This document shows, in pieces, positions 5,830-14,837 of a stretch of DNA of 30,081 bases. The notes below the pieces were generated by a model, which saw nothing but the letters and a program-made list of their open reading frames with translations, did not search any database and had not been told where the DNA came from. Source of the stretch: a virus; IMG/VR virus record IMGVR_UViG_3300037245_000753, positions 1 through 30,081 of that record, one strand, 5' to 3'. Every line of letters begins with the position of its first letter. Position 1 is the first letter of the stretch. The translations under genes and the position numbers were made by a program.

Positions 5830-6153
5830 TTATATCAGTTCGTCATCCATCATCATTCGGAATCCATCTCGCAATCTAATTCCGTAAAGCTTGTGCATCG
5901 TAGCGTTCATACGCCTTGTGTCAGCGCCCTTCCTACTAGCTTCACTTCTATCCATCTTTTTCAGGGACGCCTCCAGTTCTGCTCTCGCAGACTTAACTCT
6001 TTCTGGTGTTGTAAAGGTACTGAAACATCTCACGTAAGCCCTTTGGCATCTGGGGCATTTATAGTTGTCATCATTCCTGAAAGACGAATCGACATAAACT
6101 CTATGGTAGCACAGAGAACACATCACTACTAATTTGCCTTCTGGGACACCCAT
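5830..6153 (-). CDS. zinc-ribbon protein with basic helical tail, 107 aa
   Basis: Residues 10-40 form a classic ribbon, CSLC then CPRC separated by about 18 residues. The C-terminal two thirds are basic and helical (RAELEASLKKMDRSEASRKGADTRR region), typical of a nucleic-acid-binding accessory protein. Start ATG 6153 has AAGGGAAAG upstream. A GGCC-TCTT-GGCC hairpin (6178-6189) precedes it in the leader. Confidence 0.65.
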   Translation of the reverse strand: MGVPEGKLVVMCSLCYHRVYVDSSFRNDDNYKCPRCQRAYVRCFSTFTTPERVKSARAELEASLKKMDRSEASRKGADTRRMNATMHKLYGIRLRDGFRMMMDDELI

Positions 6154-9501: not shown

Positions 9502-9645
9502 TTAAATGCCTCTGGTGTGACTTGAACACACGACCTGCCGGTTATGAGCCGGACGCTCTACCAACTGAGCTACAGAAGCGGTTTGCCCATTCATCAGCGG
9601 GCTACCTAGTACTTGTTTTAACTTCACTTCTAATTCTGTACTCAT
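9502..9645 (-). CDS. small frame whose 3' two thirds is a tRNA gene
   Basis: ATG 9645 has GGAG eight bases upstream and reads MSTELEVKLKQVLGSP before entering, in frame, the sequence that is also the tRNA; the translation then becomes VAQLVERPAHNRQ-like, the usual echo of a tRNA. The stop is at 9502. Either a short real gene was truncated by insertion of a tRNA, or the frame is only the tRNA leader. Listed as uncertain. Confidence 0.35.
   Translation of the reverse strand: MSTELEVKLKQVLGSPLMNGQTASVAQLVERPAHNRQVVCSSHTRGI
9507..9579 (-). tRNA. tRNA with CAT anticodon (Met, or Ile2 after modification)
   Basis: Complete cloverleaf on the leftward strand: acceptor GCTTCTG pairs with CAGAGGC with one G-U. 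The D arm is GCTC/GAGC around AGTTGGTA. The anticodon stem is CCGG/CCGG with loop CTCATAA (CAT at 9546-9544), and position 27 opposite 43 is a mismatch. The T arm is GTGTG-TTCAAGT-CACAC. The discriminator is A, and CCA is not encoded. With U4-A69 and C5-G68 the known determinants do not separate elongator Met from lysidine-dependent Ile. AUA codons are common in the late genes, so Ile2 would be useful. Confidence 0.93.
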
Positions 9646-11464: not shown

Positions 11465-11677
11465 CTACTCGTCCTTGAGGAACTCTACTTCGGTCCTGTC
11501 TTTCAAAAATACCTTCTGCTCAAGCTGAACCTTTGATGATGCTACATGCTTGCCGTACATATTGGCGTGTTCTTTCAGGTCAGCGGGTCGCACAAGCCCC
11601 TTCAGTGCGTCCATGTGCAACTTTAACATCATATTGCGGTATTCGGTCATGTTCTTCGGTAATTCGTTCTTAGCCAT
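11465..11677 (-). CDS. hypothetical protein, 70 aa
   Basis: ATG 11677 with AAGGAGACAGAGA upstream, overlapping the previous gene by eight bases. Met/Leu-rich helix (YRNMMLKLHMDALKG), then a mixed charged region with VQLEQKVFLKDRTEVEFLKDE. No motif recognised. Confidence 0.6.
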   Translation of the reverse strand: MAKNELPKNMTEYRNMMLKLHMDALKGLVRPADLKEHANMYGKHVASSKVQLEQKVFLKDRTEVEFLKDE

Positions 11678-12143
11678 TCTCTGTCTCCTTAATAAATCGT
11701 TTCATTTGCAATTCAAGCCTCTTGGCTTCTATTAGTGATTGGGGTATGTCTTTACTGGACAGGCTAGATTTATTACAAATAACGCTATTGACATAGATGT
11801 CATCTAGTTGCTCGCACCTGATTCTTCTCTTTTCCAGTAATTCTTTTTTGTTTTCTTCCCAGTATGCCTTATGCCTATTGTTTATCTTCTGTTTGTACTT
11901 TTCATACCATCTCCTTTTCCCTTGATTAACTTTATCCTTATTAGCGTCCCTGTAGGCTTTTGATACTTTTTTCATTTTATCCTTGTTGGCTTCCCAGTAA
12001 GCTTTTGCCGTCTCTCTCCTCTTGTCTCCATTCGCTTCCCTATACGCCTTTTGTTGCTTCCTGATCTTCTCCTTGTTGCGTTCCCTGTAACGCTTATCCG
12101 ACGCTCTTATTCGCTTTATCCTCTCTTCTTCTGTTAGTGGCAT
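11670..12143 (-). CDS. basic six-repeat helical DNA-binding-like protein
   Basis: 157 residues. Residues 17-106 are six consecutive 15-residue units with consensus KAYxEANKDKxxxxx (for example KAYREANGDKRRETA, KAYWEANKDKMKKVS, KAYRDANKDKVNQGK), extremely Lys/Arg-rich. Such arrays are usual in front of HNH nuclease domains of phage homing enzymes, but here no HNH follows. The C-terminal 45 residues (YVNSVICNKSSLSSKDIPQS then LIEAKRLELQMKRFI) match a small domain found at the end of other phage proteins. A nuclease-less relative that binds DNA is the best guess. Confidence 0.65.
   Translation of the reverse strand: MPLTEEERIKRIRASDKRYRERNKEKIRKQQKAYREANGDKRRETAKAYWEANKDKMKKVSKAYRDANKDKVNQGKRRWYEKYKQKINNRHKAYWEENKKELLEKRRIRCEQLDDIYVNSVICNKSSLSSKDIPQSLIEAKRLELQMKRFIKETENG
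11826..12095 (-). repeat. six 45-base tandem coding repeats
   Basis: The DNA of residues 17-106 of the preceding protein. Units are diverged but keep register at exactly 45 bases, with AAAGC(C/T)TA and AATAAGGAT-like blocks recurring. This points to expansion by internal duplication. Confidence 0.65.
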
Positions 12144-12310
12144 GATGACCTTTCTATATCTCTTAACAGAAACCTTGTCCTATCAATGTGGCCTTCAACG
12201 TGATTGATTCGCCATTGAGTATTCAAACCAGCCCTTGTATTTTGTAATAAGCATTGTTGATTCTCTAATACTTGCACAAGCATCTTATGGTTCATTTCTT
12301 CAAGTGTCAT
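12134..12310 (-). CDS. small helical protein, 58 aa; first gene after the attenuator
   Basis: ATG 12310 has GGAG six bases upstream; TAA at 12134, overlapping the next gene by ten bases. Helical, with MTLEEMNHKMLVQVLENQQ and a His-containing second helix ending in RFLLRDIERS. No recognised family. It is the first gene transcribed beyond the terminator at 12442-12490. Confidence 0.65.
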   Translation of the reverse strand: MTLEEMNHKMLVQVLENQQCLLQNTRAGLNTQWRINHVEGHIDRTRFLLRDIERSSCH

Positions 12311-12441
12311 ATCTTACTCCATAAATAGTGACGGAAGGGGATACCTAATCCCAAGTGAACACATGTTATAACTCAGCTACCAGTCTATTGCATGTCCGCT
12401 TTTTATTCGACCGCCATATTATTAACTTATAAGCAGGCATG
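12311..12441 (-). other. untranslated segment between conditional terminator and gene 12134-12310
   Basis: No gene. Leftward it contains GTCGAAT once more (12411-12405), the same sequence as the terminator loop, and a GGGAT-TAGGT-ATCCC hairpin near 12338-12352. The extra GTCGAAT could compete for the ATTCGAC strand of the upstream RNA. Confidence 0.35.
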
Positions 12442-12490
12442 AAAAAAAGCCCACGGCAGAACACATTCGACTGTGATTTTTCCGTGAGCT
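12442..12490 (-). terminator. strong intrinsic terminator, leftward
   Basis: Nine-pair GC-rich stem (one G-U) closed by a smaller inner hairpin and followed by seven U residues (plus-strand A-run 12442-12448). This is the best intrinsic terminator in the window, placed only about 35 bases after a strong promoter start. Confidence 0.85.
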
Positions 12491-12524
12491 TTGAAGTTGT
12501 CATATTGTCGAATACATTCTGATT
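12442..12524 (-). ncRNA. about 83-nt small RNA or attenuator leader with loop-strand pseudoknot
   Basis: Predicted transcript from about 12524 to the U-run at 12448-12442. TTCGAC (12512-12507) lies single-stranded near the 5' end. The terminator hairpin AGCTCACGG/CCGTGGGCT (12490-12482 with 12456-12448) carries an apical CACA/TGTG helix whose six-base loop is GTCGAA (12471-12466), the exact complement. So the 5' strand can dock onto the terminator loop. It may be an independent phage sRNA, or a switch deciding read-through into the leftward genes, comparable in position to put-type or attenuator RNAs. Not a family I recognise. Confidence 0.6.
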
Positions 12525-12530
12525 ACATAT

Positions 12531-12559
12531 ATAATACACTATAAATTCTGCAAAGTCAA
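12531..12559 (-). promoter_or_regulatory. strong leftward sigma70-type promoter
   Basis: TTGACT (12559-12554), 17-base spacer, TATTAT (12536-12531), in AT-rich surroundings. The -35 overlaps the end of the upstream membrane-protein gene. The block AAATTC..CAAAGTCAA on the plus strand is shared with the promoter at 13639-13666. Transcription would begin near 12524. Confidence 0.75.
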
Positions 12560-12708
12560 GGGCTAATAGCAAAATAAATAAATATTTTTCCAAAATCCAC
12601 CCCAGCCCTGACTCCCTCCCTAACCCACCACACGCCCAAAAGGGCAAGGAGGGCTATTGAAGCGAGCAGGAACAGGGCAAGGAGGGTGTAGCGGAGGGCG
12701 GGGGTCAT
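12556..12708 (-). CDS. small one-helix membrane protein (holin or pinholin candidate), 50 aa
   Basis: ATG 12708 has AAGGAG at ideal spacing and overlaps the 3D-domain gene stop as ATGA. Residues 7-28 are a long Leu/Ala hydrophobic helix after a short basic start, then WWVREGVRAG and a second, aromatic hydrophobic stretch (IFIYFAI) at the end. Being translationally coupled to a cell-wall enzyme makes a role in membrane passage during lysis or entry plausible, but no family is recognised. Confidence 0.65.
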   Translation of the reverse strand: MTPALRYTLLALFLLASIALLALLGVWWVREGVRAGVDFGKIFIYFAISP

Positions 12709-13139
12709 AGCGACTCCTTCGTTGTATAAACTTTAACAAATATATTTTGCCTGCCCCAGTTTAAAGCCTCTTGGTGGGTGGAAAATAGCAGATCGAGCCG
12801 ATTACCTTTAATCAGACCACCTCTATCTTGCACAGTAACAGCCTCACCATAGCCAGGAACGTCCATCACTGTACCAAAGGCGTAATTACGAGGGGCGGCT
12901 ATCAGTTTGCCCGTAGCGGGCTTGCCAGAGGCCGTAATGCCGTCAGCCCATTCACCACAGCAGAGTTCGCAGGGGCAATAAGCACTTACATTCATCTTGA
13001 TAAGGTCGTATGGAGCGGGTTCTTTTACCTCTGTCTGCCGATAGTACCAGCCTTGCGACACCTTGACGCAGCCAAAGCTAACGGCAATGTAGGTCACGGC
13101 AAGGGCAATGCAGATTGTTATTATAGATAGGGTTTTCAT
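12705..13139 (-). CDS. membrane-anchored 3D-domain protein (putative lytic transglycosylase)
   Basis: 144 residues. Residues 4-24 are a signal or anchor helix, and Cys24 lies at its end. The rest matches the 3D domain (double-psi barrel related to MltA and RlpA): NVSAYCPCELCCGEWADGIT, ASGKPATGKLIAAP, FGTVMDVPGYG and VQDRGGLIKGNRLDLLFS, with the conserved Asp residues at D66, D93, D105 and D116. Such enzymes cleave peptidoglycan glycan strands. A signal-anchor version can serve as a secreted endolysin. The ribosome site (AAGGAG) sits just after an intrinsic terminator, so expression may depend on read-through or antitermination. Confidence 0.8.
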   Translation of the reverse strand: MKTLSIITICIALAVTYIAVSFGCVKVSQGWYYRQTEVKEPAPYDLIKMNVSAYCPCELCCGEWADGITASGKPATGKLIAAPRNYAFGTVMDVPGYGEAVTVQDRGGLIKGNRLDLLFSTHQEALNWGRQNIFVKVYTTKESL

Positions 13140-13154: not shown

Positions 13155-13183
13155 AAAAAACCCCCACCTATAAAAGGCAGGGG
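13155..13183 (-). terminator. intrinsic terminator before the 3D-domain gene
   Basis: Leftward CCCCTGCCT/AGGTGGGGG stem (13183-13161, with TG/TG mismatch) followed by TTTTTT (13160-13155). It lies between the lipoprotein stop and the 3D-domain start, leaving only the ribosome site after it, so it separates or attenuates expression. Confidence 0.75.
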
Positions 13184-13197
13184 CTAACCTTGTCGGG

Positions 13198-13449
13198 TTA
13201 TTTAGTCTTAAAAAACTTACGCAAGGCTTCGTCAACCTTGTTGCCTTCGTCGTCATTATTCCGCATGTGCCCAGTTGTAGGGGCGGTTTTCTGGCGTCTG
13301 GACTCGTCAGGGTCGCCAAACGTGCCACCCTTGGCTGTTGTTGCCTTCGGGTAGTACAAGTCGGCTCCTACGCCAACACTGGCACTCCACGAACAACCCT
13401 GCTGCAATACTGTCAGGGCTACTAAAACTGCAATTAATGTAATCTTCAT
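13198..13449 (-). CDS. small putative lipoprotein, 83 aa
   Basis: Signal sequence (residues 1-18) ending LQQGC with Cys19 as lipid site; Gln at -3 is unusual. The mature chain is polar, Gly/Thr/Lys-rich with no fold signature. ATGA overlap with the upstream gene. Close to the 3D-domain enzyme and the one-helix membrane protein, so envelope-directed functions cluster at 12556-13449. Could be an outer-membrane spanin or a superinfection-exclusion lipoprotein. Confidence 0.65.
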   Translation of the reverse strand: MKITLIAVLVALTVLQQGCSWSASVGVGADLYYPKATTAKGGTFGDPDESRRQKTAPTTGHMRNNDDEGNKVDEALRKFFKTK

Positions 13450-14719: not shown

Positions 14720-14748
14720 TTGACAATCATTTCAATTTAAGGTACAAT
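14720..14748 (+). promoter_or_regulatory. consensus rightward promoter of the endonuclease VII gene
   Basis: Perfect TTGACA (14720-14725), 17-base spacer, TACAAT (14743-14748). The start would fall near 14755, so the transcript opens almost exactly with the structured element at 14756. It overlaps the AT-rich leftward promoter region for the gene at 14692. Confidence 0.8.
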
Positions 14749-14755
14749 AAAAAAA

Positions 14756-14810
14756 CCAAAGGCAGGCGGTCTAGGGAGATCGCTTTTCGGGTAACAGCCC
14801 TAGCCTTTGG
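14756..14810 (+). ncRNA. compact structured RNA leading the endonuclease VII gene
   Basis: CCAAAGGC (14756-14763) pairs with GCCTTTGG (14803-14810). Inside, GCGGTC (14766-14771) can pair with GATCGC (14778-14783), leaving loop TAGGGA, whose TAGGG is complementary to CCCTA (14798-14802). Alternatively CTAGGG pairs with CCCTAG directly. So it is either a nested stem or a pseudoknot closed by an eight-pair helix. It ends 28 bases before the start codon. Possible roles: regulation of a toxic nuclease, or a self-cleaving or mobile-element RNA. No known family recognised. Confidence 0.55.
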
Positions 14811-14837
14811 CAATATTCATTATTTAGGGATAATAAC

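Follow-up and report, generated by a model that had tools for sequence, protein, structure and literature searches.

A recurrent phage RNA unit with a pseudoknot-capable terminator looks like an unnamed on/off gene switch

In the lambda PR′-tR′ late leader and in HK022 put, a promoter and a short terminated leader stand before a long operon. Inert mRNAs of the hok type stay untranslated because their 5′ region is engaged in long-range pairing. In E. coli pyrBI, an intrinsic terminator sits inside a 135-bp leader ORF (pyrL) just before the gene, and termination fails when a ribosome is close by (PMC4824070, PMC5021804). AUGs at or near an RNA 5′ end can bind 70S ribosomes directly (PMC9031893). 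IsrK of the prophage Gifsy-1 arises from a phage promoter with two products, a short RNA that ends at a terminator and a longer mRNA made by read-through (PMC4825925). Type III toxin-antitoxin RNAs, such as ToxI and AbiF RCd22, likewise join a structured RNA, a terminator, a gene and read-through (PMC12373285).

Here we analyzed a promoter, a short predicted RNA and a terminator that precede a leftward gene string in a virus record of 30,081 bases (IMG/VR record IMGVR_UViG_3300037245_000753, positions 1–30,081, hereafter the window). From its sequence and that of its relatives, the unit looks like an unnamed phage on/off gene switch. Its parts are listed in Table 1, where strands A and A′ form helix S1, and B and B′ form the terminator stem S2.

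Table 1 Parts of the element and its surroundings in the window
Feature	Position	Strand	Basis or remark
-35 hexamer TTGACT	12554..12559	-	relatives have TTGACA/T/G at the equivalent place
-10 hexamer TATTAT, 17-nt spacer	12531..12536	-	promoter search
Predicted transcription start (~12524-12525)	12523..12526	-	inferred from -10 position
Strand A (CAGAAUGUAUUCGAC), 5′ half of helix S1	12507..12521	-	15-bp pairing with 12471-12457
Mini-ORF AUG-UAU-UCG-ACA-AUA-UGA; stop overlaps (AUGA) the AUG at 12503	12500..12517	-	sequence
Loop L1 (AAUAUGACAACUUC)	12493..12506	-	
Terminator 5′ arm B (AAAGCUCACGG)	12482..12492	-	RNA fold
Loop L2 (AAAAAUCACA)	12472..12481	-	RNA fold
Strand A′ (GUCGAAUGUGUUCUG), 3′ half of S1, abuts B′	12457..12471	-	
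Terminator 3′ arm B′ (CCGUGGGCUUU)	12446..12456	-	RNA fold
T-tract end (7 T including last bases of B′); predicted RNA 3′ end ~12442	12442..12445	-	sequence
45-codon ORF (MTTSKLTEKSQSNVFCRGLFFMPAYK...), putative, open through terminator	12366..12503	-	relation to T-tract as in relatives' leader ORFs
First downstream gene (58 aa), head of leftward gene string	12134..12310	-	starts 135 nt past terminator stem

An earlier note on this DNA had proposed a good promoter and a short RNA ending in an intrinsic terminator, and the sequence supports both. The promoter, TTGACT-17-TATTAT (12559–12531, minus strand), is the second-best promoter-like site between 8 and 18 kb, with 10/12 matches. The predicted RNA of ~83–84 nt has a minimum free energy of −22.7 kcal/mol (z −3.5; 1/200 shuffles as good), its fold contains the terminator stem AAAGCUCACGG/CCGUGGGCUUU, and the whole unit recurs in relatives. 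That this terminator is the best in the window was not established: its hairpin reaches −20.8 kcal/mol, compared with −21.0 kcal/mol for the terminator of an int-alpA RNA (14755–14812) and −17.5 kcal/mol for a terminator at 13159–13185. The complementarity between the terminator loop and the RNA 5′ region that the note had described is present, but its size had been understated as six bases: A and A′ form 15 continuous base pairs, three of them G-U, with A′ inside the terminator loop. When the 33-nt 5′ region was shuffled 20,000 times with dinucleotides preserved, a run of at least 15 bp occurred once and an equally low duplex energy 56 times. When the growing RNA was folded, S1 was favoured until the terminator 3′ arm emerged, after which S2 won with pseudoknots disallowed. 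In this copy, CACA of L2 can also form a 4-bp hairpin with 12465–12462 around GUCGAA. A third GTCGAAT noted past the terminator (12405–12411) does exist, but a role for it, for instance as a P4-like target, is unsupported, as the window contains six copies of the motif, counting both strands, and relatives have no consistent counterpart.

Other features of the window were recorded alongside. An int-alpA RNA (Rfam RF02996, 47.4 bits) with its own terminator lies at 14742–14810 (minus strand) before the gene 14692–14381; it heads the other leftward operon, so both leftward operons are predicted to begin with a short terminated RNA. Int-alpA was not found in 26 relative records, in a search that gave no positive-control match. 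The classical terminator at 13159–13185 (minus strand) stands between the leftward genes 13198–13449 and 12705–13139, and the operon upstream of the element is thus itself interrupted. Inside the leftward gene string are a tRNA gene (9507–9579, minus strand) and, at 11670–12143 (minus strand), a 157-aa protein of degenerate repeats (YREANKDK...); similar repeats occur in proteins of other phages (L002–L018) and, judged by eye, in the gene behind an element of relative L336 (4442).

Using the terminase as an anchor, we collected 27 relatives with 55–79% identity from IMG/VR contigs, and further queries brought the set to ~190 loci (2.1 Mb), fetched contig ends included. All loci were scanned for long-loop terminators whose loop pairs with the upstream 45 nt. 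The window ranked first (15 bp) and L019, its closest relative by terminase (79% amino-acid identity), ranked second (13 bp, CCCGGTTAAAGTA / TGCTTTAACCGGG). The L019 element, on the same strand, heads a leftward gene and follows the promoter TTGACA-17-TATAGT, and it shares no sequence with the window element. The same holds for distant relatives, in which the order promoter, A, B, A′, B′, T-tract is common and the sequences are unrelated. After removal of L303 (225), a promoterless candidate at a contig end, the curated set comprised 21 elements.

Searches by sequence were uninformative in comparison. The element itself had no match in phage records, and 36 relative records gave short chance-level matches only. 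The neighbouring 3D-domain gene, used as an anchor, retrieved no relatives from viral_contigs, and L042, the only relative found through that gene, carries no element after it. The DNA pattern GTCGAATNNNTTCTGCC produced many scattered matches in viral and genome contigs, none of them related, and these loci were reused as background. No convincing element was seen in lambda, UAntarctica or SHOU24 (first 50 kb of the last two), nor in many of the relative contigs, many of which are fragments. Two looser searches were abandoned: ranking by duplex energy, with no demand for contiguous pairs, drowned in GC-rich noise, and a loose promoter-plus-pseudoknot scan was noise-dominated at its threshold, with 275 found against 257 expected. 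Rfam, including C4, IsrK and int-alpA, had no match at 12300–12700, with chance hits only even at E≤10, and none in 12 relative loci, in keeping with the earlier remark that no described family of this form was known. The open-access literature likewise yielded no description of such an element, which is weak evidence of novelty.

We then compared the frequency of the architecture in relatives with that in controls, at thresholds examined after the first examples had been seen. The strict count took terminators with a loop of at least 14 and an S1 score of at least 28 in which strand A closely follows a promoter of at least 9/12. Relatives contained 13 such elements, the unrelated loci (2.0 Mb) contained none, and shuffling the relatives yielded 0.33 per copy. 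Because the unrelated loci are partly GC-rich, the shuffled relatives provide the more suitable control. Lowering S1 to at least 24 gave 18, 1 and 1.0 per shuffled copy, respectively, and a promoter of at least 10 with S1 of at least 20 gave 10, 0 and 0. An earlier, smaller test had found 11/380 terminators versus 1/770. Even under a definition that ignores the terminator, the extreme tail (promoter at least 9, total score at least 55) held 19 real cases and 1 shuffled case.

Orthologous elements indicate selection on S1 pairing in two pairs. Between L329 and L331 (6115), a T-A pair has become G-C through changes on both sides and a C-G pair has become U-G, with 17/17 pairs kept; between L331 (3303) and L396, one T-A pair is absent from both strands in L396. 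The earlier note had regarded a lack of covariation between loop and 5′ strand in related phages as fatal to its reading; what we observed is the opposite, with pairing kept. Across 14 AUG-anchored elements, 121/126 S1 cells were paired, a value reached by 0 of 100,000 partner reassignments, conditional on the elements having been selected for self-pairing. In an element-by-element comparison, S1 self-pairing was best in 19/21 rows and columns. Taken together, recurrence, covariation and enrichment in relatives make it close to certain that the conserved RNA element is real. It is almost negligibly probable that an ordinary end-of-operon terminator and an unrelated promoter happen to be complementary by chance: the terminator does also trail the upstream leftward genes 14692–12556, and such a coincidence is at odds with the covariation and the enrichment.

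The geometry of the two helices is constant. The strands of S1 and S2 are interleaved in the order of an H-type pseudoknot in 21/21 curated elements, all 21 favour S1 for as long as B′ has not been made, and almost all AT-rich members carry a canonical T-tract directly after B′. L1 and L2 are short for helices of 15–20 bp, and S1 and S2 may therefore be unable to coexist fully; a correlation between S1 and L2 lengths, which would have spoken for simultaneous helices, was weak (rho 0.30, p 0.18). With symmetric scoring, and with some selection bias, S1 contained 30 G-U but only 5 A-C oppositions, an excess that points to RNA rather than DNA. The same ratio bears on the idea that A and A′ are inverted repeats acting at the DNA level, as operators or protein-binding sites around the promoter. 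A lies just past the promoter, a typical operator position, and strand A of the window copy holds a near-palindrome, GAAT-GT-ATTC. Nevertheless, elements of one genome differ in sequence and the A-B-A′-B′ order with its T-tract recurs, and we regard the DNA-level explanation as most improbable. In L321 (1378, minus strand) and L322 (290, minus strand), the promoters are nearly identical and the A strands behind them completely different, as though the structured portion had been swapped as a module right at the start codon.

The relatives further revealed a feature that the earlier note had missed, namely an AUG at the predicted RNA 5′ end that opens an ORF running through the terminator. An ATG lies 4–12 nt past the -10 hexamer in 16/21 curated elements versus 12.5% of generic promoters in the same loci (binomial p ~4e-11, for an interval chosen after the first examples and with four members forming two related pairs). 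In nearly all AUG-bearing elements this AUG lies within S1. The frame that it opens continues through the terminator and T-tract in nearly all of the 16, compared with 37% of generic promoters with such an ATG that stay open for 30 codons. The next gene starts 16–23 nt past the stem in 14 of the 15 cases found among the 21 elements. The 5′ AUG, the open frame and the gene spacing had played no part in selecting the elements. Among the exceptions to the start-codon pattern, L019 has an open frame without a start codon at the head, and L291 has UUG only. The stop of the leader ORF falls at or overlaps the next start in L019, L292, L331, L353, L375 and L312, but not in the window, where the ORF ends at 12366 and the gene begins at 12310. 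Nor does it do so where leader and gene are fused, as in L364 (5151), in which the two form one frame of 185 codons in total.

The encoded peptides themselves vary. In the L329/L331 pair, a 9-nt indel leaves the leader frame intact and the amino-acid changes are conservative, and beyond such close pairs there is little amino-acid conservation. We considered and rejected the idea that the peptides form a protein family (Ash/Icd), as they had no Pfam or NCBIfam match; the 45-codon ORF of the window also had no family match. Downstream genes are equally diverse, encoding N6/N4 DNA methylase, HNH_3 endonucleases, DUF1376 and unknowns, and one genome can hold several different elements (L331 and L362; L364 twice; L353 twice). 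In L364, a typical element (5997–6079, plus strand) precedes a gene that carries an IS1595-type transposase zinc ribbon.

Based on these observations, we propose that the element is a pseudoknot-capable, translation-gated transcription attenuator at the head of a gene or operon, a reading that falls just on the probable side. The promoter, S1, S2, T-tract, AUG position, frame and spacing can be read directly from the DNA. The model adds a start site, termination, ribosome loading, read-through and coupling, each of which we infer. A ribosome that loads on the 5′ AUG of the emerging RNA would keep A from pairing and then cover B; with B covered, the terminator would fail and polymerase would read into the operon. 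The leader ribosome would stop at or beside the next start codon, allowing translational coupling. Without a timely ribosome, S1 would sequester the AUG and S2 would terminate, leaving a short, closed, untranslatable RNA. S1 would thus penalise late loading by burying the AUG, and 70S binding at a near-5′ AUG would help a ribosome to load early.

The window copy is an atypical member by its sequence: promoter, S1, S2 and T-tract are all present, the 5′-terminal AUG is absent, and the next gene stands at +135. Conclusions drawn from relatives thus carry less force for it. Translation from its first AUG (12517) would end after five codons at a UGA that shares bases with the AUG at 12503, and the gate might operate through this near-5′ AUG and the AUGA-coupled ORF. 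Alternatively, because the next gene is 135 nt away, this copy may serve mainly as a terminator or a source of short RNA.

The earlier note had left the choice between a free sRNA and a read-through switch. Conserved placement before gene strings favours the switch, and a stable free sRNA, in which the terminated pseudoknot RNA, closed at both ends, acts in trans (on a target in host or phage, or as a protein ligand) and read-through is incidental, seems unlikely. Such an RNA would fit the strong promoter of its own, the length of ~75–110 nt, the two paired ends, the efficient-looking terminator and the distance of the window copy from any close downstream gene. It leaves the 16–23 nt gene spacing and the frame open through the terminator unexplained, and it sits poorly with several different elements in one genome and with a sequence unconserved even between related phages, which offers no shared target or ligand site.

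Privacy of sequence would be expected under another reading, in which the A′ loop of the terminated RNA pairs in trans with nascent A and drives termination, as immunity or feedback in the manner of P4 CI RNA or Gifsy IsrK on their own leaders, and hypervariable A/A′ define specificity groups. S1 sequences are indeed largely private to each element, the architecture is kept while sequence varies, and IsrK shows that a single promoter can give both a short and a long isoform (PMC4825925). We nonetheless judge this very unlikely: S1 is already the favoured nascent fold in cis, so a trans partner must outcompete a nearer one, the relatives show no second target site downstream, and single genomes hold several elements.

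In GC-rich relatives, very strong A-B-A′-B′ structures without a T-tract also follow promoters, at L431 9867, 7534 and 5199 (minus strand), L385 938 (plus) and 6094 (minus), L335 6060 (minus), and L336 831 (plus) and 4442 (minus). An HNH-type endonuclease or DUF1376-like gene begins shortly after most of them, and long ORFs run across several. Termination may therefore not be the conserved function. A pseudoknot that protects the mRNA 5′ end or controls translation, so that 5′ closure or access to the next start is conserved and termination secondary, would account for the long helices and the same gene distance in L431, L385, L335 and L336. It is quite an unlikely account of the whole set, given the canonical T-tract after B′ in almost all AT-rich members; moreover, chance pairing is more frequent in the GC-rich DNA of the T-less cases, some of which, as noted, coincide with long ORFs.

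More broadly, an RNA regulatory family conserved purely in architecture can escape both sequence and covariance-model searches. The search rule is simple and applicable to any genome: a promoter and, behind it, a 5′ strand that can pair with the loop of the terminator that follows. If the proposed attenuator mechanism is true, it would be a compact phage gate coupling transcription to ribosome loading on near-leaderless start codons, and its copies would be small orthogonal attenuator parts, testable in E. coli. A wider and more doubtful conjecture is that a whole phage clade governs many transcription units by copies of a single RNA device, each private in sequence but alike in architecture. 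A 5′-terminal AUG would be locked in a terminator pseudoknot, with expression only if a 70S ribosome catches the emerging RNA. Such a phage-wide regulon would answer to ribosome supply and not to a DNA-binding regulator, and would have travelled with mobile units, for example HNH endonuclease genes.

These features can be set against the described systems. Unlike type III antitoxins, the window and its relatives have a single A-B-A′-B′ unit and no tandem repeats, and the downstream genes are varied rather than one toxin family, with no endoribonuclease or Abi toxin; the absence of repeats and the varied genes together exclude type III antitoxin membership. In contrast to lambda PR′-tR′ and HK022 put, no Q or put-like element was identified here, and we know of no counterpart in lambda to the leader ORF and S1. 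Compared with hok, there is no toxin, the pairing partner lies in the terminator loop, and the proposed gate acts on transcription and not on 3′ processing. IsrK represents the nearest described phage logic. It pairs with a downstream orf45 site, whereas the phage element has both A and A′ within one short RNA and lacks a conserved downstream target. IsrK, P4 CI and C4 RNAs are complementary to a site in their own downstream transcript; the relatives have no consistent downstream copy of A or A′, and the GTCGAAT of the window is only 7 nt. With pyrBI, the element shares the intrinsic terminator within a short leader ORF just before the gene, and would share the dependence of read-through on ribosome closeness. 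The start codon of pyrBI is Shine–Dalgarno-led and not 5′-terminal. pyrBI has no known 5′ pseudoknot, relies on UTP-dependent pausing and occurs once per genome, whereas in the phage element S1 encloses the AUG and several unrelated copies are found per phage.
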